Shown here: in pieces, positions 8,441 to 61,905 of the stretch
Layout of the letters: every line of letters begins with the position of its first letter
Position numbering within the stretch: position 1 is the stretch's first letter
From: Tremella fuciformis
Lineage: Eukaryota; Basidiomycota; Tremellomycetes; Tremellales; Tremellaceae
Length of the DNA: 64,000 nt
NCBI GenBank assembly: GCA_032768795.1
Contig: CP136499.1
Coordinates: 744,001 to 808,000, forward strand
Direction: 5' to 3'
Notes under the pieces: generated by a model
Database searches by the model: none
What the model saw: only the letters and a program-made list of their open reading frames with translations
Told to the model about the DNA's origin: nothing
Position numbers and translations under genes: made by a program

Positions 8441-8465
8441 AAGACTCAGTGGCAAGAAGGTCGCT

Positions 8466-9037: not shown

Positions 9038-9062
9038 GCTGCGACTAGGCTACATACAACGA

Positions 9063-11941: not shown

Positions 11942-11996
11942 GTATCCATCGCTACCCTTTAGTCCTTGCTCGCCATCCTCGACACTCTTGACACCA

Positions 11997-12081
11997 TCAT
12001 TTGCCACCCACTTTTTGCCACCCAACTTTTGCCACCCAAGGTCAAGATACTTCAAGCAAAAGGCAATACTTTGCCACCCAT
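11997..12081 (+). repeat. TTTGCCACCC repeats in the 5' leader of Gypsy B
   Basis: Four spaced copies of TTTGCCACCCA between the 5' LTR and gag. They could be RNA packaging or translation signals; no function is shown. Confidence 0.6.
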
Positions 12082-12178
12082 AGTATCGTTCCTTCTATTA
12101 TCATCTTGTGCCCTCTGTCCAGAACCTACCACCCTTTCTACCATATTTGTATTTCGCTGACTAACAGGTATACCCACA

Positions 12179-17088: not shown

Positions 17089-17100
17089 AGGGGGAGCTCC

Positions 17101-17907
17101 TGTCATGACCAGCCAAGCCAGCAACCAGCCAAAACGGCCTGTGCGCTCCGTGCGCTCCGTGTGCGCTCTTGTGCGCTCCAAGTGCGGTCCTGTGCGGTCC
17201 TGTGCGCTCCTCTGTGCGCTCCTGTGCGCTCCCATCTGTAACTTGGATTTCTGGTCGATCGACAAGATCGACAAATATTCTCTGGCCAACCGACCCAATC
17301 GACAATGGGTCGACATGATCGACAAAGTGTCCCCACTCAATCGACAGAGTCGACAAAGCGTTCCCACTCAATCGACAGGGTCGACAATGCACCACTTGGC
17401 AGTCGACATGATCGACAACTCTTCCTAGACCTGTCATTCAGGTCAACCACTTAGGTTTGATAGCGCACACTTCACTTATTCTAGTTTCTCGTGTTCTCGT
17501 GTTCCCGTGATCTAGGTACATCAGAGTTAGGCTTCAAGCCATCTCAGATATACGAAGGTACTCAGATATACGAAGGTACCAAACCAAGTATATACGGGAT
17601 ACACGCTCTTGTACCTCCACTTGCTTGATAAGCGATACTCTTTATTTAGTCCCTCCTGTAGTCATGTGAAGGGGATATAAACCCAGAGGTTTTGCCTCTG
17701 ACCCCCTTCTTCTCTAGCGATGGATCTCTACTGTACTTTCTTCTACAGTTAAGTCACACAGTTGGTTTCGCCCAACACTCTCGTCCTAAGGCAGACTTCT
17801 AGGCTTTGCGAGCCAGAGACTAAGCCCCCGGGCAACCTCGTTGTACCTTCGCGTACATTCTCGCCACACCGCTCTTCAGGTGTGGAACCCCCCGTGACAC
17901 CGTGACA
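17101..17907 (+). repeat. 3' LTR of Gypsy B
   Basis: 807 bp, identical by eye to the 5' LTR, including both short-repeat arrays. Followed by CCCCG, the right copy of the target duplication. A TATA-like motif is at about 17676. Confidence 0.95.
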
Positions 17908-32529: not shown

Positions 32530-32655
32530 TTCATCAAACGACAACGAGAAGTAGAAGTAGATAATCAAGGAGGATTGTCAAGTGAGGGTACGTGCGTTTA
32601 CGTGGGGGGACGAGATAGATGGGTTTGGGAGACAAACCACGTGGTGATGATGGGC

Positions 32656-36315: not shown

Positions 36316-37037
36316 TTGCCGATAGACGCCCGCAGGATACATAAGGGCGTGACTGCGCCCTCTCGTTGTTCGATCGTACATCTACTTTCCACTCCGGAAT
36401 CAGTTGATCCCGAAGAGATCCTGGCCATTGTGAGTAGTTTCTATTCGTTACGAATAGAAACTAATTGTAGGACTATTCCACGTTCATGTCAGCCGCCCAC
36501 GCGAGTCAGACCCCGTCTAAGTTTGTTCCGAAGGCAAGTGATCTCGCACTGTTTGGGGTTAATAGTAACGAATAGTCCCACACTGTCGATGTCCCCCCGC
36601 CCTACAAACGGCCGTCCGAGCTTAAGGCCGGTGAGGCGCCGCCAAAGCGTGCTGCTCGCGGCACGCGCCCACTTTCAAATGAGAAGTTCGCCGAACAGCA
36701 AAAATATCCGGTTTCGGTTCCACCGTGCCGAGGTTGTCTCAAGGCCAAGCTTGTTTGTCGAGTCAAGCCAGGCTCAATTCGCTGTGCTGTGTGCACTTCG
36801 GCATGTTCTTTCTCAGACCCCGCGCCTTATCTTCAGGTTTTACGAGAGCATTTCCTTTCCCTCAAGGAAGGTTTGAAGGGACTCGAACGCGCTCGATTGA
36901 ATTCGTCTACCTCCGGGACAGTCACTATTCCTGCGGGCACTTTTGCGGACATACATTCGCGCATTTCCCAGATAGGTGAAGCCGAGGCAGCTGTTCGTAC
37001 TTTGGAGTCGCTGAAGAGGAAGAATAGGGAACTGTAG
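36316..37037 (+). CDS. Antisense six-cysteine accessory gene of Gypsy C
   Basis: Opposite in strand to C pol and between pol and the 3' LTR. Exon 1 ends at 36429 (LLSTPESVDPEEILAI). Intron 36430-36470 is 41 nt, GTGAGT...TTGTAG. Exon 2 is 36471-36533 (21 codons). Intron 36534-36575 is 42 nt with GC-AG borders. Exon 3 is 36576-37037. Phases are consistent. Exon 3 has a basic Lys/Pro/Arg segment, then VPPCRGCLKAKLVC, x8 and CAVCTSACSF, giving C-x2-C-x6-C-x8-C-x2-C-x3-C. It is followed by a probable coiled coil ending LKRKNREL. The cysteine spacing resembles Zn2Cys6 DNA-binding clusters, with the last gap shorter than usual. The true start is upstream; 36316 is only where a frame opens at a TTG. 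Exon plan and exon 1 end (PES) match the Gypsy D gene. Confidence 0.65.
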
Positions 37038-37104: not shown

Positions 37105-37484
37105 TTACTGACGACTTCTTAGATTATGCCTGTGCCCGGCCTCTTGCCTGACTGACTCTTGAGTTCGTTGTCGTTTGTTAGGTCGTATAGGCTCTTCTTT
37201 GTCGCTATTTGTCTTTATTCGTTTCGAATAGCTCCTATCTTTCTTGATTCCTCCGAATGTGTGACCAATGGGCTTGTCGGGGTGTCGCTCGTGGAATGTT
37301 CTTACAACCTCTGCCGCGTTTCTGACGTTCACCTCCGGCTCCCAGCCCACTTCATCGTCCCCGTAGCCTCTCCACTCCACTAGGTACTCGACCTTCCCAT
37401 TCCTTGTTCTCCTTGAGTCCAGAATCCTCTCGACTTCAAATTCAGCATCAGGCTCCACTATAGTTGGTAGTCCTTGTGGTTGCC
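37105..37484 (-). pseudogene. Gypsy C pol C-terminus with chromodomain, truncated
   Basis: About 126 codons of the Pol end: EFEVERILDSRRTRNGKVEY followed by LVEWRGYGDDEVGWEPEVNV, a chromodomain, then a Lys/Arg-rich tail. It ends 68 bp from the convergent six-cysteine gene. Upstream codons are lost at 37484, where the 1192-bp tandem array begins; the longer open frame to 37632 reads array sequence and is not pol. RT and integrase core are therefore missing from this copy. Confidence 0.85.
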
Positions 37485-40095
37485 CTAACAGTATAAAGGT
37501 TCGACCGGGGGGGCCGGGTCGAGGTCTCGACCGGGGGTTTCGCCTCTCGACCGGGGGGTACCACCCTCCCTCGCACACCTCGACCCACCCCTCTCGCCCA
37601 GCTCTCGCCTCGACCCGGCCCCCTTGACCCACTGCTTCGCCCTCGACCGGGGGTCAGGCGATTCGACCCTCGACTGGGGGTGCCCCCGACCTACTCCCTC
37701 GCCTCGACCGGGCCCCGTCCTATGGGTGATCCAAGCCGACAGGGCGCTTCTCTCTCCTCTCATTCTGCGGCCCCCATTTTCCGTGGGATCTGGCACCTTT
37801 CTTCCCGCGTTCCCGTGCCATTCTTTGTGCTGGTTGGCACCCTTCTTCCCGCGTTCCCGGTCTCCCGTGTCATTTTCGTCCGAGTTGGCACCCTTCTTCC
37901 CGCGTTCACGGTCTCCCGTGTCATTTTCGTCCGAGTTGGCACCCTTCTTCCCGCCTTCACGGTCTCCCGTGCCATTTGCCCTGCCGGTTCCCACCCTCCT
38001 GCCCTCATGCGTGCACCCGTACAAGAGAGGTCACAGTGTTCATCTCATCCTATCACTCACTCTTACCCGATCTCGAAAGTCGACCCCGGAAAGTCCTCCG
38101 ACCTAACAGTATGAAATCCTGGACCGGGGGGCCGGGTACATGATCCGACCGGGGGTTTCGTCATTTTACTGGGGGCTACCGAATTCTGGAACCGGGGTCT
38201 CGTCATTGTACTGGGGGGAGGCCCAAAAGTTCGACTGGGGGTCGAGGCCTCTGTACTTGGGGGGCAAATCTCGACCCAGATATGGGGGGTCCTAGACGAC
38301 GTGTTGACGTACGACGAACCGACGTAACGACGCAATGACGTGATGACGCTGGACGTGATGACGAGCCGACGGGACGACGCAACGACGGGACGACGTGATG
38401 ACGTGATGACGCAGCAACAAGCAGCCTCTGTATATAGGTCCCCAGCCTGACCGTTGGCTCTTGGCCGCAGAGCTACGTCTGCTTCTTTGTTCTCTCGACT
38501 CTACATCTGCGGCGGTCCCTTGCCTCTCCGGCCCAGAGCCTTCAACCCCAGAGCTATCTCCTGACCACCGCTCTGCTCTCCTCCCCTCCCGGCGGCCCTT
38601 ATGCTCACAACTCTACGGCCTCTCCTTGCGTCTCTACATCCTAATTCACGGCCAGGGCTTAGGGCCACCAGGGCGCCTAACAGTATAAAGGTTCGACTGG
38701 GGGGGCCGGGTCGAAGTCTCGACTGGGGGTTTCGCCTCTCGACTGGGGGGTACCACCCTCCCTCGCACACCTCGACCCACCCCTCTCGCCCAGCTCTCGC
38801 CTCGACCCGGCCCCCTTGACCCACTGCTTCGCCCTCGACCGGGGGTCAGGCGATTCGACCCTCGACTGGGGGTGCCCCCGACCTACTCCCTCGCCTCGAC
38901 CGGGCCCCGTCCTATGGGTGATCCAAGCCGACAGGGCGCTTCTCTCTCCTCTCATTCTGCGGCCCCCATTTTCCGTGGGATCTGGCACCTTTCTTCCCGC
39001 GTTCCCGTGCCATTCTTTGTGCTGGTTGGCACCCTTCTTCCCGCGTTCCCGGTCTCCCGTGTCATTTTCGTCCGAGTTGGCACCCTTCTTCCCGCGTTCA
39101 CGGTCTCCCGTGTCATTTTCGTCCGAGTTGGCACCCTTCTTCCCGCCTTCACGGTCTCCCGTGCCATTTGCCCTGCCGGTTCCCACCCTCCTGCCCTCAT
39201 GCGTGCACCCGTACAAGAGAGGTCACAGTGTTCATCTCATCCTATCACTCACTCTTACCCGATCTCGAAAGTCGACCCCGGAAAGTCCTCCGACCTAACA
39301 GTATGAAATCCTGGACCGGGGGGCCGGGTACATGATCCGACCGGGGGTTTCGTCATTTTACTGGGGGCTACCGAATTCTGGAACCGGGGTCTCGTCATTG
39401 TACTGGGGGGAGGCCCAAAAGTTCGACTGGGGGTCGAGGCCTCTGTACTTGGGGGGCAAATCTCGACCCAGATATGGGGGGTCCTAGACGACGTGTTGAC
39501 GTACGACGAACCGACGTAACGACGCAATGACGTGATGACGCTGGACGTGATGACGAGCCGACGGGACGACGCAACGACGGGACGACGTGATGACGTGATG
39601 ACGCAGCAACAAGCAGCCTCTGTATATAGGTCCCCAGCCTGACCGTTGGCTCTTGGCCGCAGAGCTACGTCTGCTTCTTTGTTCTCTCGACTCTACATCT
39701 GCGGCGGTCCCTTGCCTCTCCGGCCCAGAGCCTTCAACCCCAGAGCTATCTCCTGACCACCGCTCTGCTCTCCTCCCCTCCCGGCGGCCCTTATGCTCAC
39801 AACTCTACGGCCTCTCCTTGCGTCTCTACATCCTAATTCACGGCCAGGGCTTAGGGCCACCAGGGCGCCTAACAGTATAAAGGTTCGACTGGGGGGGCCG
39901 GGTCGAAGTCTCGACTGGGGGTTTCGCCTCTCGACTGGGGGGTACGCCCCTCTCTCGTAGCCCTTGACCCACCCCTCTCGCCCGACTGTCGCCTCGACTG
40001 GGCCCCCTCGACCAAGAGTTTCGCCCTCGACTGGGGGTCAGGCGATTCGACCCTCGACTGGGGGTACCCTCGACCCACTATCTCGCCTTGAACGG
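37485..40095. repeat. Tandem array of 1192-bp units with G-run and TGACG clusters
   Basis: Two full units and a partial third, in register: GTATAAAGG occurs at 37491, 38683 and 39875, exactly 1192 bp apart. The third copy diverges after about 39960. Each unit contains about a dozen CTCGACYGGGGG-type motifs (G5-G7 runs), four imperfect about 50-bp repeats with CCCTTCTTCCCGCGTTC, a second set of G5-G6 runs near 38120-38290, then a cluster of TGACG/CGACG motifs (about 38298-38412, again 1192 bp later). A TATA-like TATATAGG follows at about 38433. No real coding frame; the open frames repeat with the unit. It could be a duplicated LTR or a satellite. Confidence 0.9.
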
Positions 40096-40182
40096 GTCTC
40101 AATGTGTGGTTGATGGCCGTTTGAAGGGGACGGGAGGGGTATTGTGAGGCCGGGGTCTGCCTCCCTGCATCCACAGGCTCCT

Positions 40183-40617
40183 TGTCACGACGGCCACGCC
40201 CTCGACGACCTACGCACGTGACCGACACCTCTCACGTGGCCGACACGTGACCTACCTCGGGCTGGAGAACCTCGACGAGGGAGTAGACGTTGGATGAACG
40301 CGCGACGACGGGAAGCAGGCGCAGAGTCATATAGGATGCCCCGGGCGCCCGTCGTAGTTCTTCAGCACTCTCTGATTGAGTCTCATGGATCACCATTGAC
40401 GATCTCACTCTCTCCGTGGCACGCAGCGTGGCTGAGTCGCACTCACGCTGTATCCTCGACGACCTTGTTACCTCGACGACCTTGTAACCTCGACGAGGAT
40501 CCAACCTCGACGAGGATCCTACCTCGACATCCTCGTTTCTAGCCCTTTATCCTTTATTCTTGACTCTGATATTGTGCGAGAGGGCCTCTGCCAACGGGAG
40601 AGCGCAGCATCGTGACA
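40183..40617 (+). repeat. 5' LTR of Gypsy D
   Basis: 435 bp. Contains CACGTG-type sequences near 40211-40250, a TATA-like CATATAGG near 40329, and five or six CCTCGACGA repeats at about 40455-40535. Related fragments lie at 9919, 23289, 24198, 34135 and 47762. Confidence 0.95.
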
Positions 40618-40779
40618 GTATCAGAGAGTGCTATTACCTCTTCGCACAACCACGCACACCCGGGGCATATGCCCATCGAGACTCGACGTTCGACATCACT
40701 CAACCCGAACCACGAGCACCAAGCTTTACCACAGTCCCTTCGTCTTCCTCCTGCTAGCCGGTCTAGCACACCCAACAAC

Positions 40780-41748
40780 ATGGCGGATCAGGCTTCCCTC
40801 GCTCAGATCCTGCAACAACTCGTTGCCATCGAGGCTCGTCGAGCCAATTCACCCACTCCCTCGACCAACGCATCATCGAGCGAGCCCAAGGCCAACCCGC
40901 CCGACACTTTCGATGGCTCTAAGCCGGAGAAACTCGAAGGATTCCTCATGCAATGCAACATCGTCTTTCGCCTACAGCCTTCGAAGTTTACAGAGGAGTC
41001 CAAAGTCATCTACGCCATCTCCTTTCTTAGGGGCTTCGTTCAAGACGCTATCCAGCCTCTCGCGTCGGGAGAAGAACTCGACGAGAAGATCAGTAGCTTT
41101 CAGAGGCTATCGAGATACTTGAGGGACAACTTCGGGGATCCCGACATCAAGGGCACCGCTCAGAGGCGATACTTCGACTTGAAGCAGACCGGATCAGCGG
41201 CAGAGTACTTCGCGAAGCTTAGGGAGTACCTGGCGGTCTTGGGATGGGAAGCCAACGAGCAAGCTAGAGCTAGGGCGCTCGAAGGCCTCTCAGACAACCT
41301 TCGAGACGAGGTTGCTCGGACCACAGTGGAGCTGGAGACCTTCGGAGAGCTTCAGTCCTATGTCATCAAGTTGGACAACCGGCTCAGAGCAAGGGAGGCC
41401 GAGAAAAAGGCCGAGGTCAAGCGGTACGAAGAAGCTCGACGACGGCCAGCTACGACTACCCAGGGACAAGTTCCTCCCCCTGCCTCGTCGACCTACCGCC
41501 CTCTCCCGCCAATCCCGTCGGCGCGCCCTTCACCAGCCCCTAGTGGCCCGCTTGGTTACAGACCAACGCCTCCTGGAGGACTCGACCCAGCGAAACGCCA
41601 GAGGAGGAATGAGCAGCGCCTCTGCTTCCGATGCGGCGGGGTCGGTCATTTCGCCAACGCCTGTGTTCCCGGGCAACGACCTCCCGTTCCTCGAGGCAGC
41701 CCTGCACCCGGCCGACCTATCGTCAAGCAGGAGGACCCAAAAGCTTGA
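40780..41748 (+). CDS. gag: Gag polyprotein of Gypsy D
   Basis: 322 residues from ATG 40780 (MADQASLAQILQQLVAIEAR), chosen because earlier codons of the frame lie in the LTR and leader. A Gag domain follows about residue 50, with PDTFDGSKPEKLEGFLMQC, LRDNFGDPDIKGTAQRRYFD and LKQTGSAAEYFAKL. Then a charged coiled segment (RLRAREAEKKAEVKRYEEAR), a Pro-rich linker and one CCHC knuckle (CFRCGGVGHFANAC) near residue 285. The frame overlaps pol by about 118 bp in a different frame, suggesting frameshifting to make Gag-Pol. It has no stops. Confidence 0.9.
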   Translation: MADQASLAQILQQLVAIEARRANSPTPSTNASSSEPKANPPDTFDGSKPEKLEGFLMQCNIVFRLQPSKFTEESKVIYAISFLRGFVQDAIQPLASGEELDEKISSFQRLSRYLRDNFGDPDIKGTAQRRYFDLKQTGSAAEYFAKLREYLAVLGWEANEQARARALEGLSDNLRDEVARTTVELETFGELQSYVIKLDNRLRAREAEKKAEVKRYEEARRRPATTTQGQVPPPASSTYRPLPPIPSARPSPAPSGPLGYRPTPPGGLDPAKRQRRNEQRLCFRCGGVGHFANACVPGQRPPVPRGSPAPGRPIVKQEDPKA

Positions 41749-44700
41749 GGGACGCTGAGAACATACGAGAGGTCCAGCGGCCCCATCAAGACATCCTCTC
41801 GGCCACCTCCCCTCCCCATTCACCTCCCAACCCCCCTGTATCACAATCACCTTTAATCCCGAACCTCGACGAAGAAGCGAAAGATGAGAAGGCACTGGTT
41901 GCCACGGACGGAATAGCTAGTGATGAGGAGGCATGCATTCGTGGTGAGGTTTGCTGTTTAGGCAGAGAGCAGGCTGTCGTGTCAGGAAGCGTCAATCAAG
42001 TCGACGGGGTGAAGGTGCTGCTCGACACCGGGGCCACTGGTAACTTCGTCGACTCTGTGTTCGTTGAACGGCATCACATCCCCTGTTACCCACTCCCTCG
42101 ACCCCGGCAACTCCTCCTCTTTGACGGTAAACCAAGCTCAGCAGGACAAGTAGAAAAGGGAGTGACGGGAACAGTAAAAGTCCTAGGCGGTGAAGGAAGG
42201 GAAGAGTTAGGTGTGACAACATTGGCAGGAGCGGACGTGGTGTTGGGATATGACTGGATGAAGGAGAACGGTGTGATATTGGATGCTGGAAGGAAGAAGG
42301 CGACAAGGAAGAGGACAGGCGGGAAAGAGACGAACCAGGAGAACGGACCACAGAACCTCGACGAGGTCTCTCGACTATCAGGAACATTGGAGACCAAGGC
42401 GGAAAGGCGACAAGGTAGACGAAGGAGCAGGCGATCGAAGGCGAACAGCATTGAGCTCCCATTCAACCGATGGGAGCAGAACCAGGGAAATACAGTCGAG
42501 CTATGCGGCACAGTGACCGAGGAGTTGAGCAAGAAGGAGGCATATATCGACGTCCTACCCGACTATGACGAGTACGAACTCAGCCCAGAAGAGGAAGCAG
42601 CCGTGCAACATCTTGTCCCGGAGCGATATCACGAATACCTCGAGGTCTTCCATCCTCGACGAGGGGTAGAGACGCTTGCTCCAAGTAGAGAATACGACCT
42701 ACGCATCACGCTTAAACCTGGAGCCGACCTACGAGTGGCCCCGCTGTATAGCCTGAACCCAGATCAGATGGATGCGCTCGACAAGTTGCTGGATCGAGAG
42801 AGAAAGGCTGGAAGGATTCGACCCTCGAACTCGCCCTATGGGTCACCAAGCTTCTTCGTACCAAAGAAGGCCCAAGGAGAACTGAGAATGGTTGTCGACT
42901 ATCGCAAGCTCAACGAGATGACGGTGCCAGACGCGTATCCGCTACCCCTGATATCCCAAGTGACCGACGACCTAGCCAAGTCGAGATACTACACGAAGCT
43001 CGACTTGCCGGGAGCATACCAGCTGCTCCGGATGGCTCCTGGACATGAGAAGTTCACAGCATTCCGTACCCCTCGAGGAATGTTCGAGTCACTGGTGGTG
43101 CGAGACGGACTTCGGAACGCGCCGAGCGTGTTCCAACACTTCTTGAACGAAGTCCTGCACGAATTCCTGGGAAAAGGGGTCATCATCTACATCGACGACA
43201 TTCTCATCCATGCGGAGAACCTCGAGGAACTTAGGAGATTGACTAAGGCGGTGCTGGAGGCGTTGCGGAAGGCTGGACTGTTTGTGAAGGCGTCTAAGTC
43301 GGAGTTCGAGCAGACTAAGGTGAAGTTCTTGGGCTTCATCATCTCGCACGAGGGCGTCGAGGCTGACAGTGGGTATGTCGAGGGTGTTCGCAATTTCCCT
43401 ACCCCTCGAAACCTACACGAAACTCGACGGTTCCTCGGTCTTGCGAGCTATTACCGACGCTTCGTACCGCAATTCTCCAAGCTCGCTGGGCCTCTCTCGC
43501 ACCTCACAAGGAAGGATATCGACTTCCATTGGGGAGATGGACAGCAGTGGGCGTTCGAGGAGATCAAGAGGCGAATGAGCGAAGCACCAGTGATCGCTCA
43601 CTTCAACCCGACGTTCGAGACTATCATCCAGACAGACGCCTCGGTCTACGGATGGGGGTTCATCATCTCGCAGGTGAACTCCTCGACAGGACAAGAACAC
43701 CCTGTTGCAGTCGAGTCGGGTGCCTTCTCAGGAGCGGAGCTCAACTACACTACCACGGAGAAAGAGTTCCTCGCGATCGTCATGGCCTTCAAGCGGCGTC
43801 GGCATCTCCTTCTGCAGGTTACCTCGACGATCTTGACCGACCATCTCAACCTCACATACTGGATGGAGCCACAGAAACTCAGCCCTCGAGTTGCGAGATG
43901 GGTGGATACCCTAGCTGGCTTCTCATACAAGATCGTCTATCGACCAGGAACCAAGGCAGCCTACCCGGATGCATTATCGAGGAGGGCCGACTACATCCCA
44001 CAGGGCAAGGACGCAGAACCAGAGCTAGTTCAAGCCCTGCCAAGCTTCGACGAGGAGAGTACGGTCACATCCAGTCTGGGCTACATGTTGCGAGCGTTGG
44101 TGGAAGACGAAGAAGGAGGAGAAGACGAAGAAGAAGGAGAAGACGAGGAAGGAGAATTGAGGGGACTGTCTCGAGGAGAATTGAAGGAAGGGCAGGGCGG
44201 AGATGAGGACTTGAAGGATACATTGGAGGAGCTTGGGGAGCTAAGAGAGGAGAAGAGGATTACGAAGGAGGAGAACCCAAGGGCATGGTCACTGGCAAAA
44301 AGACTGGGCCTCGACGAGGCAAGCAAGATCAAGTTCGACGAGGATGGCCTACTCAGGATCAACGGGCGACTCTACATCCCGGACATCAAACAGGCAAGAG
44401 TAAAGGTCATGCGAGATCACCACGAGGGGCAATTGGCTGGACATCCTGGAGTTGCGAAGATGCTGGAGCTGGTTAGGAGGGAGTACTGTTGGTTGGGACT
44501 AAGACGGGATGTGGAGAAGTATGTGAGAGGGTGTGCAGTGTGTCAGCGGTGCAAACCGGTGCGTCAGCGTCCCCATGGACTGTTACACAGCCTGGAGATT
44601 GCTGACAGGCCATGGTCCTCGATATCCATGGACTTCATCGAGGAGCTTCCCGCCAGCTCGGGCTTCAACTCGATCCTTGTCGTCGTCGACCGGCTCACCA

Positions 44701-45713
44701 AATGGGCTATCTTCATCCCTACGACAACTCGGCTCAACACGGCAGGCTTGGTCGACCTTGTCCTCGACAATGTGGTAGCGCAGCATGGGCTACCCACGAG
44801 CATCATTTCGGATAGAGGAAGCAAGTTCACCAGCAAGCTTTGGGGTGCAATGTGCAGCACCCTCGGCATCAAGGTCAGCCTTTCGACGGCCTTCCACCCT
44901 CAGACGGATGGGCAGACAGAGAGGACAAATCAAGCCCTCGAGCAATACCTGAGGATCTTCTGCGACTACAAGCAGGACAACTGGGCTACCCTTCTCCAGC
45001 GGGCGGCGTTCGCGTACAACAACTCAATGCATTCGGCAATCATGATGACGCCGTTTGAAGCAAACTTCGGCTACGCCCCAAGGTGGGCAGAATCCATCGT
45101 CGTCGAGGGAGAAGCTCGAGAGATCCCATCAGTCGTCGAGAAATTTGCCTCGCTCGAGGAGGTGCACGCCTTGTGCAAGAAGAACATCGAGCTCGCCAAT
45201 GAGGCATATGCAAGAGGGTACAACGCCAAGCATCAGGAGGCCCCCGAGATGAAGGTAGGGGACCAAGTGATGCTGTCGATGGAGAACATACAAACTCGAC
45301 GACCTTCGAAGAAGCTCGACTTGAAATGGTGTGGACCCTATAGAATCATCGCAAAGGCGGGCAGCGCGTACAAGCTTGAGCTGCCCGACACGATGAAGGT
45401 CAATCCAGTCTTTTCGGTGGACCGACTCAAGGTATTCGAGCCTCCGACGCTCCCAGGACAAACATACGATCTGCCAGGGCCTGTGGAAGTCGACGAGGAA
45501 GGGGAATCATTCGAGGTGAAGAGGATCATTGACTCGAGGAAAAGGAGAGGACGATTGGAGTACAAGGTGGAGTGGCTTGGGTATGAGGGGACGGATGAGG
45601 CGACGACATGGGAACCAGCAGGGAATATTGATGGAGCCTGGGCGAGCATTGAGAAGTTCCACAAGGAGAACCCGGAGAAACCAGGAGGCCAAGCAGCAAC
45701 CAGGCCTAAGTGA
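41631..45713 (+). CDS. pol: Pol polyprotein of Gypsy D (PR-RT-RNH-IN-chromodomain)
   Basis: 1360 codons without stops. Protease DTGATGNF near residue 129. RT VDYRKLN and YIDDILIH near 519; the usual PFG box reads VVRDGLRNAP (about 488-497), an unusual change. RNase H QTDASVYGWGF near 665. A Glu/Asp-rich insert (EDEEGGEDEEEGEDEEGE, about 823-840) separates RNase H and integrase. Integrase zinc finger DHHEGQLAGH and CAVCQRCK. Catalytic Asp (SISMDFI, about 1000), Asp (SDRGSKF, about 1060) and Glu (DGQTERTNQ, about 1094). Chromodomain RIIDSRKRRGRLEYKVEWLG and TTWEPAGNI near 1300-1345. The first codons overlap gag. Convergent with the six-cysteine gene, 121 bp away. Confidence 0.95.
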   Translation: MRRGRSFRQRLCSRATTSRSSRQPCTRPTYRQAGGPKSLRDAENIREVQRPHQDILSATSPPHSPPNPPVSQSPLIPNLDEEAKDEKALVATDGIASDEEACIRGEVCCLGREQAVVSGSVNQVDGVKVLLDTGATGNFVDSVFVERHHIPCYPLPRPRQLLLFDGKPSSAGQVEKGVTGTVKVLGGEGREELGVTTLAGADVVLGYDWMKENGVILDAGRKKATRKRTGGKETNQENGPQNLDEVSRLSGTLETKAERRQGRRRSRRSKANSIELPFNRWEQNQGNTVELCGTVTEELSKKEAYIDVLPDYDEYELSPEEEAAVQHLVPERYHEYLEVFHPRRGVETLAPSREYDLRITLKPGADLRVAPLYSLNPDQMDALDKLLDRERKAGRIRPSNSPYGSPSFFVPKKAQGELRMVVDYRKLNEMTVPDAYPLPLISQVTDDLAKSRYYTKLDLPGAYQLLRMAPGHEKFTAFRTPRGMFESLVVRDGLRNAPSVFQHFLNEVLHEFLGKGVIIYIDDILIHAENLEELRRLTKAVLEALRKAGLFVKASKSEFEQTKVKFLGFIISHEGVEADSGYVEGVRNFPTPRNLHETRRFLGLASYYRRFVPQFSKLAGPLSHLTRKDIDFHWGDGQQWAFEEIKRRMSEAPVIAHFNPTFETIIQTDASVYGWGFIISQVNSSTGQEHPVAVESGAFSGAELNYTTTEKEFLAIVMAFKRRRHLLLQVTSTILTDHLNLTYWMEPQKLSPRVARWVDTLAGFSYKIVYRPGTKAAYPDALSRRADYIPQGKDAEPELVQALPSFDEESTVTSSLGYMLRALVEDEEGGEDEEEGEDEEGELRGLSRGELKEGQGGDEDLKDTLEELGELREEKRITKEENPRAWSLAKRLGLDEASKIKFDEDGLLRINGRLYIPDIKQARVKVMRDHHEGQLAGHPGVAKMLELVRREYCWLGLRRDVEKYVRGCAVCQRCKPVRQRPHGLLHSLEIADRPWSSISMDFIEELPASSGFNSILVVVDRLTKWAIFIPTTTRLNTAGLVDLVLDNVVAQHGLPTSIISDRGSKFTSKLWGAMCSTLGIKVSLSTAFHPQTDGQTERTNQALEQYLRIFCDYKQDNWATLLQRAAFAYNNSMHSAIMMTPFEANFGYAPRWAESIVVEGEAREIPSVVEKFASLEEVHALCKKNIELANEAYARGYNAKHQEAPEMKVGDQVMLSMENIQTRRPSKKLDLKWCGPYRIIAKAGSAYKLELPDTMKVNPVFSVDRLKVFEPPTLPGQTYDLPGPVEVDEEGESFEVKRIIDSRKRRGRLEYKVEWLGYEGTDEATTWEPAGNIDGAWASIEKFHKENPEKPGGQAATRPK

Positions 45714-45833
45714 AGTAGCTACAGAGCATAGGCTGAGAAGCAGTGAGCGGTGAGAAACATACATGCGGCAAGGTACAAGAGTCAAGACGGCAAGAAGCAA
45801 GAAGCAAGAAGTCAAAGACAAGACAAGCTACGG

Positions 45834-47427
45834 TCAAGATGTTCCCTCGAGAAACTCCCCAAGTGTCAACTCGTCGAAGTTAACACCCAAGTCACCTGCG
45901 ATGTCTCGCGCCCGTGAGATAAAGTAGGTACGCATCGGTGCTTGAGTCTCTCGGCGAGCGAAGTGACTCAATTGAAATAACTCTTGCCACCGGCGGTCTG
46001 GGGCAGAGGTCGAGGCCATTGGAGCGGGTGGTGGTGGTGTTGGCGGCGGTAGCTGCATCATGGGTGGGGGTGGAGACCAGTGAGAAGTCCTTGACGGTCC
46101 GGCTTGAGGTACAGGATCGAGTTCGCCATCCCCTAGCCAACCCGTGCCAGCGTCGCCCATCGGTTCCGGAGCAGGGGGAGGGAGCGGGCTCAGCCTACTC
46201 GTCGAGGTAGGATGCCCTGAGCGGAGTCTCTTGTGTGCCAACGGTGACGAGATGGGCGAGGACGAAGAGCGAGCCCGACGTCTCTCCCTTCCCTTTCCCT
46301 TCCCTTTCTTCCCAGAAGCCTTGACCGTGCCCGCTAAGTCGATGTTGGCGAGGCCGGCGGCCAAGGTCGTCGAGGTGGAGCGACCTGCGGCGAGCCTGCC
46401 GGAACGTCGGATGCCTGGGGTGACGGGCGAGGGAGACGTGCCGCGAGCGAAGGACACCTGACGGCGCCGTGCCGATGAAGAGGGGCCAGGAGTTACCGTG
46501 CCGAACGAGCAGGCCAGGGTGCCGCACGTTAGGCACTTCACTTTCTTGCCTTCCTCGACGATGCGACACGGGAGGTCGTCGGTGACACACGCCTCACATC
46601 GCTCATCCCCCTCTAGAACCCGGATCGGCCGTGAACCCGCTTGTTGCTGAATGTCAGAGGATACCAAGTAGCTGACAATACTCACCCGGGCCCATGTCAG
46701 AGATCTGTTGTATCCCCGTTGTCCTCGGTCGGGGTAGTGGGAGCCTACTGATCAGTTTGGGCGAAACTTGCAGACTTTACTTACCAAAGAACGAACGGTC
46801 CAATGGCTCTGACTCCGGGACCAGCAGTCCCCATCCTTTCTTCACATAGTATGCCTCCTCGGAGGCATTTCGCGGGTCAAATCGCCGGCTAGGAGGAATC
46901 TCCTCCTCGGACAAGCTCGACGATGCCGGAGTGTCGGGCGCTAGCTCGTCCACACCAGCGTCTACATCCAACTCCTCCTCCCCCTCTTCCTGTGGGACAT
47001 CCGCGGCAGGCGCATCGCTGGGTAGCTCCGCAGTCTGTTCGTTGGGCGGTGGGATGGCCCCGACGGCGGGGAGTGGTACAGCCTCGTTGACTGTAGGGAT
47101 GTCGGCAGTCGTGGCGGCTTGTGTGGGGGATGGGAAGGGGGTACCTTCGGGTTGGGCGGTGCCGGCACGAGATGGGGACGGGTTGGACATCGAGTCGACA
47201 CTGACAGTCTCAAATCGAGAATCGATTTCTGTGCAGAGTGTTACTGACCCGTCTGAGTCAGAAGATGCCTCGTCTATAGTTGCCGTAGGGGTTGTAGAAG
47301 AAGGATAGGACAGCGCGTTGTCTAGAGAACTGCTGTCGAAGAGGATGTAGGGAGATGGAGGGGGCGAGCTTGTGGTGAAGGTGGATGCGTCGAGTGTTCT
47401 TGGTCTTGAGAGGTGTAGCCAGGGCAT
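45834..47427 (-). CDS. Antisense six-cysteine accessory gene of Gypsy D
   Basis: Three exons, opposite to gag-pol and inside the element. Exon 1: 47427 (MPWLHLSRPRTLDAST) to about 46784, ending at PESEPLDRSFF and a GTAAGTAAAG donor. It is Pro/Ser/Glu-rich with an acidic part. Exon 2 is about 21 codons (SHYPDRGQRGYNRSLTWAR) between an acceptor near 46747 and a GTGAGTATTG donor. Exon 3 begins QQAGSRPIRVLEGD at about 46650 and carries CEACVTDDLPC, x10 and CLTCGTLACSF. It then has a long low-complexity region with basic runs (GKKGKGKGRERRRA) and ends with a helical segment (FISRARDIAGDLGVNFDELT). Frames are continuous through both splices. The cysteine plan suggests a Zn2Cys6-like DNA-binding module; nuclear action is inferred. 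Promoter probably in or near the 3' LTR. About 500 residues. Confidence 0.75.
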
Positions 47428-47761
47428 AAGGCGTGAGTTGAGGTTGATGGTGGGGATGAGAGCGCTGACGCCCTCTCCCCCCTCTGTTTATGTCGTTTTC
47501 GAGCATCCCGCGACATGGCGACGCCCTCGAGCAACACGAGGCTACCTCGACGACGGATTGGCAGTCCTTTCTCCGTTTCCTTGACGACCGCTCGACGACT
47601 TGTCGCCAGAGTTTCGCTTCCGTTACAAGCGACGTCATTCGACTGCTGTCTCGACTCCTGGATCGGCAATGCGGGTGTGTTCGACGAGGACGAGGGAGAA
47701 GGCTTGAGTGGATGGAGATAGCGCGTGTCTCGCAGGAGCTCGACTTCAAAGGTGGGCAGAG

Positions 47762-48196
47762 TGTCACGACGGCCACGCCCTCGACGACCTACGCACGTGA
47801 CCAACACCTCTCACGTGAGCGACACGTGACCTACCTCGGGCTGGAGAACCTCGACAAGGGAGTAGACGTTGAATGAACGCGCGACGGCGGGAAGCAGGCG
47901 CAGAGTCATATAGGATGCCCCGGGCGCCCGTCGTAGTTCTTCAGCACTCTCTGATTGAGTCTCATGGATCATCATTGACGATCTCACTCTCTCCGTGGCA
48001 CGCAGCGTGGCTGAGTCGCACTCACGCTGTATCCTCGACGACCTTGTCACCTCGACGACCTTGTAACCTCGACGAGGATCCAACCTCGACGAGGATCCTA
48101 CCTCAACAACCTCGTTTCTACCCCTTTATCCTTTATCCTTGACTCTGATATTGTGCGAGAGGGCCTCTGCCAACGGGAGAGCGCAGCATCGTGACA
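47762..48196 (+). repeat. 3' LTR of Gypsy D
   Basis: 435 bp, ends TGTCACGACGG...CATCGTGACA. Preceded by AAAGGTGGGCAGAG, a purine-rich stretch that could prime plus-strand synthesis; a similar sequence precedes the D3 LTR at 56657. Confidence 0.95.
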
Positions 48197-48781
48197 AAGA
48201 GGCCACTTGTGGCCAATCGCAACCGCACCCCATATCATGAGGGTCTCTCGACCTTGTTTAAAGGTTGGGACAAGGTGTTTGAGCAGGAATTCTTCGCCAG
48301 GGCGCCGGATAGTATAGGTCGGTCCAATCTTCCTCCCAATCTCACAGCTTGCCTCATCGGTGAAGATCACACGCCGCCAGTCCAGATCTGCCACCTCCTG
48401 AGCCCACCTTAGTCGCTGCTCCACCTGTGCTGCCGATAAGAAGGGCTTAGGACGAGCCTTTCGCTTGTGAAGGCCTTCGATATGCGCCATCCTAGCCACT
48501 GTCCTGCCTGACACATCTTCTTTGGCGCCTAGATCGTCCCAAGACTGCTGTGGGTTCAACTCAATGTCTCCGAGCACTCGGCGGCGTGCATGTTTATCGA
48601 GTTTGGGCGGTCGTTTGCCCCGTGGGCGTGAACTGGTTGAACCGGTCGCTTTGAAACGTCGCAGAGTGGTGGATACAGAGCCAGAAGGGATGTCGAGTTT
48701 TTTGGCGATTTCAGTTTGTGAAGCGCCTGCTTTCTGCATGCCAACTATCTCGCCTCGGACATGTTCACTCAAATCTTTCAT
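48197..48781 (-). pseudogene. Tc1-like transposase, C-terminus replaced by Gypsy D LTR
   Basis: About 195 codons from ATG 48781 (MKDLSEHVRGEIVGMQKAGA). An N-terminal helix-turn-helix pair (SQTEIAKKLDIPSGSVSTTL and SWDDLGAKEDVSGRTVARM) binds the transposon ends. The start of the DDE catalytic domain follows, with the first Asp in RRVIFTDEASCE and the block TLMIWGAVAIGHKWPL. The second Asp and last acidic residue are absent because the frame runs into the D LTR at 48196. The missing half is not found on the other side of D. Terminal inverted repeats were not recognised. Confidence 0.85.
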
Positions 48782-49130
48782 CTTGAGGCAATGTATGCAG
48801 AATTGATGGAGAAACAACAAATTTTTATCGACAGAAGAAGGGATGAAACAGTTGAATGATGGTCCGAGCCCGGTGCCACATTGCCACATTCATACCAATG
48901 TCGGTGACGAGTACATATCAAGAATACATACACCGTCCACCACGCCCCGCCCTATAACGACAGTCAGTCGATTGCTCGAGTGCCGGAGAACCGGGTCTGG
49001 ATGATGATGGCGCGACGACAATACACTTGACGCTGCTAGCGACGACTCAAGGTGGATCCTCGCTCATGGCATGCATATTCATGCATGTCTGTCCCCCAGC
49101 CAGTGGGCAACCAACCATCGTCATCATCAC
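48782..49130. other. Intergenic, nothing recognised
   Basis: Upstream of the transposase start and downstream of the kinase-like gene. No terminal inverted repeat of the Tc1-like element was recognised. Confidence 0.4.
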
Positions 49131-53889: not shown

Positions 53890-54604
53890 CGTTGAGGCCG
53901 ATCTCGAATCGCCGGGAGAACAAGGGCAGAGGAGTCGAGTGAACGACCTGTGAGAAAGAGAGCATGGTGTTCTCCTCTTCATCATCACGAGGCCAGGGCG
54001 AGCACATTGTCGACGTGTGGCTCGCCAGGAGGTCGGCAGAGTCGTCGAGATGGCAGGGTAGCAGCCGAGTCACGTTGAGGTTGTGGAGCGCTGTCATGAA
54101 TGACACATCGCCAAGGTAGCCCTATATAATGAGTCAAGTCCGGAGGTGATTAACCCGAGCTTGGCCACAGATTTCCTTTTGGTTTAGTATGAATCAGAAG
54201 GATCCTTGTGTTATGTAATCACCTACGTGACAAGCGCAGTCGAGGTGGTGGGAGACGACGGACGCGCCGTGGCGAGAAGGGTGTGGGTGGTGGTGGTGGT
54301 GGTGGTAGGGGTGTCTGGAGGGGTCCCCGCGTGCAGGTCGATCTGGGTGACATTGCCCAGATGTGGTCGGGACATGATGGCGCGGGGCTGGATGTGGATG
54401 TGGATGTGGATGTGGCTGTGGGCGGTGGTGAGGGTGTAGAGGAGCATCGAGGACGAGGAGACGAGGCATGGACGTCGAGGGGAACGAGGAGGAGGAGCAA
54501 GGTGTGTGTGTCGTGTCGGTCAACCCTGCTCGCTCGCCCCCCTGCCCTGCCCTGTTTGATCCAAGGAAGGACAAGGACCGACGGGGCCGCGCCGGGGGGC
54601 CGGT
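53890..54604. other. No supported gene; low-complexity GT-rich stretch
   Basis: A minus-strand frame (54106-53882) looks mildly protein-like but is not recognised. 54280-54440 holds GGT and GATGTG simple repeats. This is where pol of element D3 would be expected, but no pol similarity is seen. Confidence 0.4.
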
Positions 54605-56130
54605 CTAACGTTCCAAGCTCTCGACCATGGCCTGGAGACTCTTGTGCATCGCTTTGAGCTTGTCCCGCTTGCTCTCCACCTCCTGCCCCGCCCTCTCGAG
54701 CGCCTCTTGAATGGCCAGACGTCTGAGGTGTCGCCGGGGGCTCGCCGCGCTGTGGCGTCCGGTCGGCGGTCGGCGAGCTGGACGGCGGCTCCCCATCTTT
54801 CAGAGTACATCGACCGGTTGTGCAGGTGAAGCACTTTCAGCCTATGGTACCCGGCGGGATGAGGCACCGACGTCCCTCCTGCCTACACCAACGACACGGC
54901 CGCTCGGCGTCTACTGCGTCCTTGTGGTCGTCCTGCTGATGAGTGTCTGCCTCGGTATGTGGTTGAGCACTGACGAGAAACTTCGCTGGGGTCCGATTCT
55001 TATGCCGTCCAGCTTGGCGCCGAATCGCCGGAGTTGCCGCCGCCGCAGGCGTCTGCGGCGCCGTCGGCCTTTGCGCCCCGTTCCCCTCCTCCCTCCCCTG
55101 CCCCTTCCAGCCCATCGCGGCCGGCAGTGCCTCCATAGAGGCCTCCATCATCTCGGCGACGGAATCGTAGCTCTGAGGCAATGGGATTCCGGTCACCTGT
55201 TGCCCGCTCAGCACTTGCTATGAGTGATGCATTCGGACTTACCTGTTGCCCGCTCAGCACTTGCTATGAGTGATGAGGAGGGCAACAGGCGGCGGCATTC
55301 TACAAGGTCGTCGAGGGTGTCGGCGTTATATGCGGAGTTATCGTTGTGGCAGCTTCCCCTGCCTCGTCGAGGATGAACCTCGTCGAGGCACAACCTCGTC
55401 GAGGATGTGTGTGCCTCGACGAGGCTACTCGAGGCTGAGTCAAGCTCATGTGAGCGTACTACCTATTTCCGTCGCTCGGCCGCCTCGTGCAGCGCAGCCT
55501 CAGCCGCCTCCTCTGCCTGCATGTCGACGTCGGCAATCTCGCTGACCCCCCTGACCGCGCTCACCTCGCCGCGCAAGCCGCTTGCTTCACCTCGCGGTTG
55601 GCAACTGCCTCGTGTGCGCGGTGGCGTGGGTAGTCGCTCGCCAAGGGGTAAGTCATGCACGACTTAATAGACAACGTCGCACATGGGGGCCTGTGAACCG
55701 GCTCTGTTGAAGGGGTTGAGGTAGGTGGTGGCCCCAGCCCACCAGTTTGCTGTTGGTTTGTTCAAGCCCTGCCCGTCAGTCTCGTTTCTTCTTGGTAGTG
55801 CCGCTGTGGCTTACGCCGGCGCCGCCCCGTCCGCTTGCCCTCTCCTTTGTCCACCGGCAGAGCAGGCTCAAGCTCAAGCCTCCCCGCGTCGACCTCGTCC
55901 ACCTCCATCCCTCTCCCCTCCTCGTCCCCACCCATCTCCTCATCCTCCTGCTCGAGCTGCGTCAGCGGCAAGCTGCCGCCGTCGCCCTCCTCCTCCTCCT
56001 CCTCCTTGCCATCCACCACTCCCGTCATCACCTCCCCGACAACCTCTCCCTCGCCGAGCTCCTCGATTTCGAGCTCCTTGTTTGCCCTGCTCTCTCGACG
56101 AGTGCCGCGCTCGTGACCAAAGGTCCGCTG
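54605..56130 (-). pseudogene. Antisense six-cysteine accessory gene of Gypsy D3 (disrupted)
   Basis: Fourth member of the family. Reading leftwards: an acidic frame (KELEIEELGEGEVVGEV through about 55762), then a frame 55660-55463 (GVSEIADVDMQAEEAAEAAL). The 318-bp TIR element at 55157-55474 interrupts, and the frame continues (EASMEALPAAMGWKG) at about 55150. If the insert and one CCGAG are removed the reading frame is continuous. The cluster follows near 54900-54830: CRWCRQEGRRC, x10 including an in-frame TGA, then CFTCTTGRC. A coiled-coil frame (AGQEVESKRDKLKAMHKSLQ) ends at 54605 after a frameshift. Upstream minus-strand sequence (about 56660-56370) resembles the region before the D gene. 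Placed just left of the D3 3' LTR, as in D. Inactive. Confidence 0.6.
55157..55474 (+). mobile_element. TIR element (MITE-like), copy 2, inside the D3 accessory gene
   Basis: 318 bp with 8-bp terminal inverted repeats CGACGGAA/TTCCGTCG and a 5-bp target duplication CTCGG (55152-55156 and 55475-55479). Homologous, inverted, to 8140-8440. Contains a 46-bp duplication of the segment CCTGTTGCCCGCTCAGCACT (55196 and 55242) and the hairpin closed by GGCAACAGG (55281-55289). No coding capacity, so it is non-autonomous. Confidence 0.8.
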
Positions 56131-58913: not shown

Positions 58914-61905
58914 ATGCTACCACCTCCACCGCCTGAGAACCGCGTCGTCACCGGCAAGGGCTCAAAAGATTCGACACTGTCTCGCTCCACCGTCACGACA
59001 GACGAGTCGGCACCTCTTCGTACACCCGGCTCGGATCGTCCAGCCGAACGTCTCCAACGGGTCTCGTTGCTCACTCCACCGCCGCCACAGCCTGAGATAC
59101 GAGTACCTTTCAGGTCATTTCTGCATCAACCAGATAGGCATATTGTCGTGTTCAGCCCGTCAGATGCCGCGCCGCGCGAGACGATCGCAGAGAATCGCAG
59201 CAAGTTCAATGACGACATCATGGACTGGTGGCGAACCCGGTCGAGCGAGAGTGGTTTCCATCACGAACTACTTTCGATCTGCAAATGCGTGCTAGGCGGG
59301 CGGCGGAACCGCTGGCTCAATCCTGACTCCACAGAGGGACTGGCGGTAGCGCCCCAGTTCCAGGTTGTGTCTGGGATGGACATGCGGCACTTCGGTACGT
59401 CGGACAAGAGGGTCTGTCAGACGCTGTTCTGGAAGACATTTGCCGATGCCCATACGCAACAAGGATGCGCAGCAGCCTTTGAAACGAGTGAGTCGTCTTG
59501 ACCAGATCTCAACACGAGCCTTCACAGCTTTGCCTCGCATGGATCGACCCTTTGCGCGGACATTGGAAGCCTGTCGATCCTTGCTGACAAGTAAAGATCC
59601 CCCCGACACGACCGCAACGACCATCACCTCTCACAACATCGTCGTAGCTCCATCGCCGCCGTCACAGTCGACATCATCCTCCATTGGTATCGACGACGGG
59701 ATCGCCTCGCTAAAGACAAACGCCAAACGCCTTACCGTTCCTGACATGATGCTCATCGTGACATCAGCTGACAAAGTCGCATATGACGAGTCCCGGAAAA
59801 GTCTGCGAAAGAGGCTGAAGAGACTCCGAGACACCAAGTCGACAAGTACGACGCAGGGCAGCAAGCTCGATCAGGAGGAGCGTCTACTCGCACACACACT
59901 TGACGATCACGGCTTCATACCCGATGATCTCGCCTCGGAGGCGGGCACCGCCCAAAGCAGCGTCTCAGGCTCGTCACATTCGTCAAACATCCGAAAGCGC
60001 AAGCTTGCCACCCGAGTGGCTGCAGAGCGGCTCGACCGTTGGTTTGCCATACCTGGCATCGTCGCCGAGTACAAAGTCGCGCAGTACTTTACCATGCTCT
60101 GTCAGCTTCTCGGCTATCTTGTGCAAGTCTACGAGGCGTGTGGGACGAGATTGGGCCTGCTAGTCAACAGAGGTGGATTCGCTCGCGTATTCGTCATCGA
60201 GCCGGATTCGGAGTGCGACCGGCGAGTCGCTATCGAGACTGCCCAGAAAGAATGGTGGGGCAAGGTGATGTCGATGGAGCAAGTCGACTCGTCTACGTTC
60301 GCCAACAAGCAATGGGTCCCGAACGACATCTGTACTCAAACGACCACCCCTCCGGACGACGGAGCCACGCCGCCGCCAGGGCAATTTGACCATACCGAGA
60401 ACCGCACGTACACCGTGCCCGATTGGCACGTCATCCAGCGCCTTGTCGATTTTGTCGAGCTTGGGAGGGACAATGTCAAATGTCTCGATTCGCAGCAGGC
60501 ACCAGGACGGGAAGAGCTATTCGTCAAGAACCGATCGGTCCGATTCGGCGAACCTTTCTCCTCGGCAGACCTCCCGGTTACGCAGACTTCGGATTCTGGA
60601 CAACACAGCGATAATGTCGCCACTGGATCTGCGCTGCCGCCCACCTTCGAGTTGGACCTTGGAGATTCACGGACTGATCCGTCCACCCGTCCGGCACTGT
60701 CCGAACAAGTCCGACCTGATCTCGTACGCTCGTACGAGCTGATTGCACGTGGAGCCAGGACGCTCAAGTCGATCCCGCCACCTGCGCAGGCTCCGACATC
60801 GGCCAAAATCAAGCCAAAAGGCAAACGCGATGCCGCACGAGAGCGAAAGCATGGGGACTCGGACACCGAAGAGGATGGTCAGCCACCATCTGGAGGTGAT
60901 GGTCGAGGAGCTGGTGGATCGGGACCGGGAGAGGGAGACGGAGACGGCAACCCCGACAGACCTCGGGACTCGCCAGACGATCAGGGCGAACGTCGTGAAC
61001 CTGGACAGGGCGATGGAGGGGCGGACCGCACGAGTGGACCAGATGATGCGGCGGAAGGCGATGGTCAACCGGAGCCTTTGGCGGGGCGCACAGGTGGACC
61101 GGGTGATGGTCACGGTGTGGACGACAAAGCCGTTCAGCTGAAAGCTGCTGCCAACGGCGGAGGTGTGATGGACCAAGGGGATTCAGGAGTTTACAAACAG
61201 CGTGAGTGCCCAGACCATGCTACTTCTCTCCTATCCTCCTTCATTGGGCTGTCTTTCACTTCGTACCCGTATCCGCGCCGCCCGGCCGAGCGCTTCAGAG
61301 TCGGGAAAATTCTGCTCTTCCGCGCTCCATGCCGAACTTGCGCTGAAGGTTCAGTGACCACCGCCGCGCTCCGACATCATAATCGAACCTCCGCTCCTTC
61401 AAGACGTCCTACCGGACGCGCACCGCTATTTTCACCGTCGTCATACGCACACAATATCGGCGAGGCTGGTAGCGGCTCCCAAGTGGCGGCCATCGAGCTC
61501 GAGATGGACTGTGACATCTCATCGCGCCCTTCCGAAGGAGACACTTCTGGCGACACCTGGAGCGACGAGAGTGACAGCGAAGAAGAAGAGGCATGGCAGG
61601 AGCCCTCTCCAGAACATGAAGCCTTGCGTCGGACGCTTGGCATGCTCGGTGTGACACTTCATTTCGTGTCGCCCCAAGATATGGACGGCATCGCGGCGGA
61701 CGCCCATGCCAAGGCGCACATACAAGGGCTGGTCCGGCCACCGGTACGCAGCGTCTACACCCTGCCCGAGTCCCCGTTACCCGGCCGGGCCAGACGCCCA
61801 GGATCCATGGGTCACACGAGTGGCGACGCGACAAGTAAGCATTCACCGCAGACCGCTCAGGACCACGACAGCGACATGTTCGAGACTGTGCCGGAGTGGT
61901 TATGA
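58914..61905 (+). CDS. Two-exon hypothetical protein
   Basis: Exon 1 58914-59487 from the first ATG (MLPPPPPENRVV), intron 59488-59527 (40 nt, GTGAGT...TCACAG), exon 2 59528-61905; phases agree, 983 residues. N-terminal about 100 residues are Pro/Ser-rich; then FNDDIMDWWRTRSSESGFHH. Residues about 365-415 form a conserved-looking block: IVAEYKVAQYFTMLCQLLGY, then GTRLGLLVNRGGFARVFVI, resembling the Glu-x-Lys/Gln block before fungal FunK1-type kinases and PD-(D/E)XK-like folds; this is only a resemblance. A Gly/Asp-rich region (about 650-750) precedes a GTGAGT near 61202, so a further intron there is possible. The C-terminus is acidic (SDESDSEEEEAWQEPSPEHE). No kinase motifs. No family assigned. 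Confidence 0.65.

Follow-up and report, generated by a model that had tools for sequence, protein, structure and literature searches.

A six-cysteine, apparently spliced antisense gene in Gypsy D and related Gypsy families of a fungal genome

The window analysed here, a stretch of 64,000 nucleotides at C10:744001–808000, contains an LTR retrotransposon, Gypsy D, which almost certainly carries a gene on the strand opposite to gag and pol, between pol and the 3′ LTR. The protein encoded by this gene is shown to be under purifying selection, strongest in its middle part, which holds a cluster of six cysteines. Whilst the original prediction presented the gene as one of Gypsy D, antisense six-Cys genes are in fact found 3′ of pol in at least five Gypsy families of the genome (D, E, G, H, and A), with a further relic in F. 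Antisense genes in this position are known from plant elements (the aORF-3R class) and from brtn of the fungal element Boty, and the kind is therefore known; the new part, not found in the literature searched, is a six-Cys, apparently spliced antisense gene common to several fungal Gypsy families.

Gypsy D and the model of its antisense gene

Gypsy D is bounded by forward-strand LTRs at 40183–40617 and 47762–48196, with BLASTN of the pair giving 423 of 435 positions identical and ends of TGTCAC...GTGACA, in agreement with the boundaries of 40183–48196 claimed originally; a target-site duplication of 4–8 bp was looked for at the flanks, and none was found. The gag ORF (40570–41748, stop to stop, forward strand) matches Pfam Retrotrans_gag and contains a CCHC-like zinc knuckle (E 0.0007) which, at 20.0 bits, lies just below the Pfam cut-off of 20.8. 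The pol ORF (41613–45713, forward strand), a frame of 1366 aa, carries reverse transcriptase (RT), RNase H, integrase, and chromodomain matches in Pfam, with protease models scoring below their cut-offs. The RT-RNaseH-INT order and the chromodomain in pol identify the element as a Ty3/Gypsy chromovirus, with a gap of 2048 bp separating the pol stop (45713) from the 3′ LTR.

A Tc1/mariner-type transposase frame (HTH_Tnp_Tc3_2; 48098–48889, reverse strand) extends into the 3′ LTR, so D is located in or against a Tc1/mariner copy. Directly to the left of D (37484–40167) are three copies of a 300-bp direct repeat with a spacing of 1192 bp; identity to the first copy is 99% in the second and 74% in the third. 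The D LTR also contains 17-bp direct repeats with ACCTCGACGA, at 40449–40528 and 48028–48104; this sequence has 16 exact matches in the window against 0.23 expected, and, as it is also found within coding DNA, it remains only a lead as a candidate binding site.

The gene between pol and the 3′ LTR lies on the minus strand, convergent with pol as predicted, with a coding sequence of 504 aa (47427–46785, 46744–46686, and 46646–45834) divided by two GT..AG introns (46784–46745 and 46685–46647), also as predicted; the claimed extent of 45714–47762 proved too wide, the coding sequence occupying only 47427–45834. Exon 1 begins at ATG 47427, encodes an acidic N-terminus rich in Pro, Ser, and Thr, and may contain an additional intron of 48 nt (GTCAGT...GTCAG). 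In the 19 intact copies of the gene described below, intron 1 (40 nt) has the ends GTRAGT..TAG, its donor reading GTAAGT or GTGAGT, and intron 2 (39 nt), with a CTGAC branch-like site, has the ends GTGAGT..CAG. Between them lies exon 2, of 59 nt (56 nt in family E), and exon 3 encodes the six-Cys cluster, a basic linker, and a C-terminal part common to family E, ending at the stop. The cluster reads C-x2-C-x6-C-x10-C-x2-C-x4-C, just as the original prediction described it. The pI of the protein is 4.1 over residues 1–180 and 12.0 over residues 300–400.

A TATA-like CATAAA hexamer (47487–47492, minus strand) lies 65 nt upstream of the antisense ATG in the window copy, and is present in 21/21 aligned D copies, at a distance of 65 nt in 17 and of 66–67 nt in two; in the other two (L011 and L016) the box and the ATG are likewise both present. 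ATG 47427 is likewise kept in all 21 copies, and is preferred as the start for this reason and because the indels of two diverged copies, L022 and L029, between this ATG and a downstream ATG at 47190 are all multiples of three. ATG 47190, the start of a 425-aa model, is lost in L022 and was dropped, with the 425-aa model being the basis of the per-part pN/pS values and of the Pfam scan of the D antisense protein given below.

Purifying selection on the D antisense protein

Searching the genome (28.1 Mb, 11 contigs) with the D antisense interval returned 34 matching places, some of which are pieces of one copy. Thirty loci were fetched, of which 21, including the window copy, span the whole interval, with the nine partial loci excluded from the counts; the "four copies" of the original prediction are untraceable, the whole interval being present at least 21 times. 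Of these 21, 19 preserve the ATG, the GT/AG splice sites, the frame, and the stop, giving 504 or 505 aa, and the remaining two are broken by a single stop (L022) or a frameshift (L029). Across the intact copies the pooled pN/pS of the gene is 0.17 (bootstrap 0.11–0.24; 171 pairs, 19 copies), compared with 0.03 in the last 1.2 kb of pol. Of the check proposed with the original prediction, the genomic part asks whether other D copies lack the ORF or lack purifying selection on it, and the gene survived it; as in the aORF-3R class, the gene is kept in most copies with coding conservation.

Constraint is unevenly distributed along the protein. In the 425-aa model, pN/pS is 0.67 over residues 1–100, 0.03 over residues 100–170, and 0.04 over residues 165–215, which contain the Cys cluster, with values of 0.19, 0.18, and 0.11 in the three remaining parts. 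By reading frame, the values for exon 3 are 0.12 in the coding frame, 2.2–2.7 in four other frames, and 0.19 in the sense frame which shares its wobble positions; this sense frame is interrupted by stops, with the longest sense ORF there being 117 aa. Exon 1 follows this pattern with smaller differences (coding frame 0.33, mirror frame 0.45, others 1.0–2.4). Indels in the coding sequence among the D copies are all multiples of three, with a single exception that belongs to a decayed copy. Nonsynonymous changes make up 54 of the 144 distinct substitutions, where 98.2 would be expected and none of 2000 simulations gave fewer than 80; no stops are seen against 3.3 expected, however 73 of the 2000 simulations are likewise free of stops, making the lack of stops alone weak evidence for coding. 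Taken together, the intact copies, the low pN/pS confined to the coding frame and its wobble mirror, and the indels in threes show selection at the level of the protein.

This selection is far weaker than that on pol, and the antisense gene evolves faster. Compared with the two broken copies, L022 and L029, the gene has a corrected dN/dS of 0.25, at dS values of 0.47 and 0.84 respectively (uncorrected pN/pS bootstrap medians of 0.32 and 0.37), with the pol of L022 giving 0.04. The LTR of L022 is 97.5% identical whilst its protein is much diverged (dN 0.118), a contrast that does not suggest tight co-evolution of protein and LTR. The window copy itself looks mosaic: over 41613–47427, comparison with L002–L004 gives a pS of 0.007–0.009 in pol and of 0.044–0.069 in the antisense gene, 6–8 times more, a mismatch pointing to template switching or conversion close to where pol ends.

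Related antisense genes and their cysteine clusters

The sister family E, with an RT at ~82% to that of D, carries a homologous antisense gene. In the single E copy examined (L061; C1:17000–19000), four exons are modelled, encoding 533 or 556 aa depending on the ATG, with the last three exons joined by introns matching the two of D, exon 2 also corresponding, and a TATAAA lying 66 nt upstream of the first ATG. The Cys core of this copy is 56% identical to that of D in the genome search and 51% identical in the aligned core. The antisense gene of E is offset from RT by 2493 bp, against 2494 bp in the window D copy. Among the 33 E-type matches listed (of 64), a set which includes the F relic and two matches at C7 that are one copy in pieces, 29 are antisense and no more than 3.5 kb 3′ of an RT match, 20 at exactly 2493 bp; among the 27 D-type matches listed (of 64), 21 are antisense and 3′ of RT, at 2488–2595 bp. 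The RT positions behind these offsets are 62 of 150 RT matches for D and E, and 35 of 150 for G, H, and A. The F relic (L062) retains the Cys cluster and the LDRAFFG exon end.

The window holds three more six-Cys antisense genes besides that of D, from A, G, and a broken H-like copy. In family G, with RT matches mostly at 64%, the 901 bp of L063 contain five intron-like stretches of the gene, of which one has a GC donor, and a single frame of 228 codons is open through all five; this 901-bp stretch has 18 full-length matches at 97–100% and one at 83%. The G fragment of the window (36388–37037, plus strand) comprises an exon end, introns at 36430–36470 and 36534–36575, the latter with a GC donor, and the six-Cys exon (36576–37037), and adjoins a pol chromodomain at 37105–37653 on the minus strand. 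Of the 22 G matches listed (of 24), 17 lie 2576–2628 bp 3′ of an RT match. The six-Cys exon of Gypsy A (9063–9425, minus strand) is preceded by an intron-like stretch (9471–9426), with the end of the A pol (SH3_Tf2-1) at 8406–9173 on the plus strand, and one of the six A matches listed has an RT match in the expected place. Family H, with RT at 64–66%, has nine of 14 listed matches (of 15) at 2775–2814 bp 3′ of RT, and is represented in the window by a broken antisense gene of an H-like family (54219–55217, minus strand) with a stop inside the cluster. The H copies and most G copies are known from the positions and frames of matches rather than from their DNA. Position antisense to gag-pol and between pol and the 3′ LTR is thus observed directly in D, and for E, G, and H it follows from strand and distance to RT alone. 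Four families (D, E, G, and A) have modelled introns, with the frame open across them in D, one E copy, and one G stretch. In Gypsy B (11135–17400), with a chromodomain pol, the 3′ LTR begins no more than 12 bp after pol, so that this element has no antisense gene and provides a natural contrast within the same window. Two further long frames of the window, at 59350–61905 (plus strand, 851 aa) and 30730–32577 (minus strand, 615 aa), have no Pfam match up to E 0.01.

Relationship between the distant families is supported by profile comparison, with a D/E/F profile aligning to the A core with an hhalign E of 8.4e-6 (probability 83%) and to the G core with an E of 2.1e-5 (probability 77%); shuffles with the cysteines held fixed reach the true score in 0/1000 cases for A and 9/1000 for G. 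Genome searches with the single D, E, or F proteins did not reach G, H, or A. Position, orientation, and a CSF ending agree among the families, and an intron lies 12–16 residues ahead of the first Cys in D, E, and A, the G exon beginning 50 residues ahead.

Outside this genome, the full-length D antisense protein and its core found nothing in a set of 5.8 billion proteins, in one search scoring 8000 candidates sharing most words with E up to 0.01, and another scoring 50 candidates with E up to 10; a scan of viral contigs likewise found no relative. An exon-3 profile retrieved only one entry from the protein set. This entry (P0001) is a public 214-aa protein from a 3922-base contig, 100% identical to the E six-Cys exon of L061 over their overlap, with its first 19 residues corresponding to the end of E exon 2 and an unspliced intron 2, and is probably from the same or a close species.

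The spacing of the six cysteines varies between families, being x2-x6-x10-x2-x4 in D, x2-x6-x11-x2-x5 in E and F, x2-x6-x8-x2-x3 in G, and x2-x6-x8-x2-x4 in A. The canonical fungal Zn2Cys6 domain (PF00172) follows C-x2-C-x6-C-x5-12-C-x2-C-x6-8-C. The original description of the cluster as close to Zn2Cys6 holds for the C-x2-C-x6-C start and the near spacing, however membership of the class fails on the last loop, which has 4 (D), 5 (E and F), 3 (G), and 4 (A) residues rather than 6–8, and Pfam Zn_clus gives no match up to E 10 for any of the D, E, F, G, and A cores. No Pfam family scores above its cut-off for the 425-aa D model or these five cores, with weak matches of the D core to zf-HIT (E 0.17) and Zn_ribbon_5 (E 2.9), and SBDS_C (E 0.024) as the sole match of the G exon. 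Against a small profile built from known Zn2Cys6 domains, E scores 14.1 bits (reached by 0/500 Cys-fixed shuffles) and D 11.1 bits (9/500), whereas the scores of F, A, and G are reached by 172/500, 98/1000, and 230/1000 shuffles respectively. A GATA zinc finger was tried because of the outer C-x2-C-x17/18-C-x2-C spacing of D and E, and rejected, with the core absent and the scores against a profile of GATA domains reached by 49/500 (D), 121/500 (E), 356/500 (F), 605/1000 (A), and 494/1000 (G) shuffles. In the PDB, the D core has two irrelevant weak matches (E 0.74 and 1.5), and the G core, searched up to E 10, matches only LAC9 (E 0.58, not significant). Given the non-canonical spacing and the lack of a Pfam match, we refer to a six-Cys module, which probably binds zinc, and do not file it under Zn2Cys6.

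Candidate functions and comparison with known systems

We infer that a dedicated promoter just inside the 3′ LTR, marked by the TATA-like box 65–66 nt upstream of the ATG, would drive a minus-strand mRNA, to be spliced and then translated. The product would be a nuclear protein, acidic at its N-terminus and helical at its C-terminus, with a zinc-binding six-Cys module followed by a basic tract. The antisense introns would be invisible to the sense genomic RNA and so be transmitted through reverse transcription, a point of the original prediction which we uphold as sound. The protein may bind nucleic acid or chromatin at the DNA of its own family, keeping the element expressed through LTR activation or anti-silencing, which we favour because the copies that spread keep the gene intact. 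A nuclear, element-encoded regulator of its own element is, tentatively, the likeliest role, with some support by analogy from the antisense proteins of Grande, which is nuclear, and Retand, which is predicted to bind DNA (PMC7264820, PMC11963269). Against it stand the lack of a Pfam family, P0001 as the sole homologue found outside this genome in the protein set searched, the divergence of L022, the far weaker constraint than on pol, and the weak constraint on the N-terminus, and the sequence does not discriminate between an activator, a repressor, and a cofactor. More speculatively, a fungal chromovirus clade might already have had its own zinc-cluster-like factor, acting in transcription or against silencing and encoded by a multi-intron antisense gene, when the lineages of at least five families parted, each factor diverging to serve its own element, with antisense splicing keeping the introns through each retrotransposition cycle.

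Nucleic-acid chaperones, too, make use of basic tracts and of Cys clusters resembling zinc knuckles, and the protein could instead be a replication cofactor, such as an RNA or cDNA chaperone, or a partner in nuclear import or integration targeting. For the plant antisense proteins, a part in nuclear entry has been considered (PMC7264820), however a promoter-like start and spliced mRNA of its own would decouple the protein from Gag-Pol, and gag already has the near-threshold CCHC-like knuckle and pol the chromodomain, leaving this role rather unlikely. Less probable again is a self-limiting repressor, which would damp sense transcription and so limit the number of copies: a protein of this sort could act in trans on all of them, and the start of the gene near the 3′ LTR resembles that of HTLV-1 HBZ, a nuclear protein (PMC11963269), yet the gene is kept by all five families, and selection on single copies would disfavour a pure repressor unless the host or the element lineage were also protected.

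Transcripts antisense to LTR elements can enter siRNA pathways (PMC7264820), which would allow the RNA to be the functional product through dsRNA or siRNA control, but selection on the amino-acid sequence, as seen in the frame comparison and the indels, rejects RNA as the sole function and makes this reading very improbable, although an RNA function may coexist. As for origin, capture of a host Zn2Cys6 transcription-factor gene in reverse orientation would be compatible with a regulator, and draws on the mini-profile scores of E and D, the non-significant LAC9 match, and the multi-intron structure; we think it unlikely, with the F, A, and G scores reached by shuffles, Zn_clus unmatched, and no recognisable host gene among the genome matches inspected. 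Although 51 stop-to-stop frames of at least 80 aa occur in and around D, a chance ORF or annotation artefact is refuted by the selection, splice-site, and multi-family evidence, and its probability is negligible.

The antisense genes treated in the papers cited here are those of plant elements and of Boty. The present genome is compact, at 28 Mb, and combines numerous intact copies with five or more families that have the gene, selection that can be quantified, and a well-defined Cys domain. Two ideas can be put to the test in it: that mobile elements bring nuclear regulators of their own, and that a retroelement can stably retain a spliced gene when its introns are antisense. There is also a caution for annotation, in that genes of this type, where they are annotated, could pass for zinc-cluster genes of the host.

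Antisense ORFs between pol and the 3′ LTR are described in Grande, RIRE2, Retand, and PvRetro13, and outside plants in Boty (PMC7264820), the antisense gene of which, in Botrytis cinerea and Sclerotinia, is credited there to Zhao et al. 2011. The brtn gene of Boty is confirmed in PMC8365987 and PMC4227169, the latter also giving a chromodomain in a Boty-like element. The passages of PMC10971195 on Boty contain nothing on brtn, and the word "antisense" is absent from the text examined of PMC3248453 and PMC2864245, which deal with LTR elements of fungi. The novelty claimed originally, that of such a gene with this cysteine cluster in a fungus, is narrowed as regards position by brtn (PMC7264820), and stands as regards the cluster, no fungal six-Cys antisense gene having been found in the literature searched, which covers Zhao et al. 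2011 through citing papers.

In comparison with fungal Zn2Cys6 proteins of the GAL4 type, the module shares six cysteines starting C-x2-C-x6-C and, in D, a basic region after the cluster, but differs in its shorter last loop and, in D, E, and A, in having little that is basic between the second and third Cys. HTLV-1 HBZ is spliced and repressive and has a bZIP fold rather than a Cys cluster. It is a nuclear antisense protein (PMC11963269) that likewise starts near the 3′ LTR, the likeness being one of possible working rather than of sequence. The plant aORF-3R genes (Grande gene23, RIRE2, and Retand ORF4 with TRP28) share the antisense orientation, the position between pol and the 3′ LTR, and retention in most copies, with 97% of Retand clusters carrying antisense ORFs with TRP28, which may bind DNA, and with an own upstream promoter reported for Grande and a nuclear or DNA-binding product suggested (PMC7264820, PMC11963269). 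The present genes differ in encoding a six-Cys protein, in the introns modelled in four families, and in their fungal host, with TRP28 (PF04195) absent from Pfam scans of the 425-aa D model, E exon 3, the F piece, and the G and A exons; Retand, moreover, belongs to a non-chromovirus lineage, whereas Gypsy D carries a chromodomain. The brtn gene of Boty/BcGypsy1 is likewise antisense and located between pol and the 3′ LTR, again in a fungal chromodomain Gypsy element; in a comparison by published description, the gene reported here differs from it in being common to several families of one genome.
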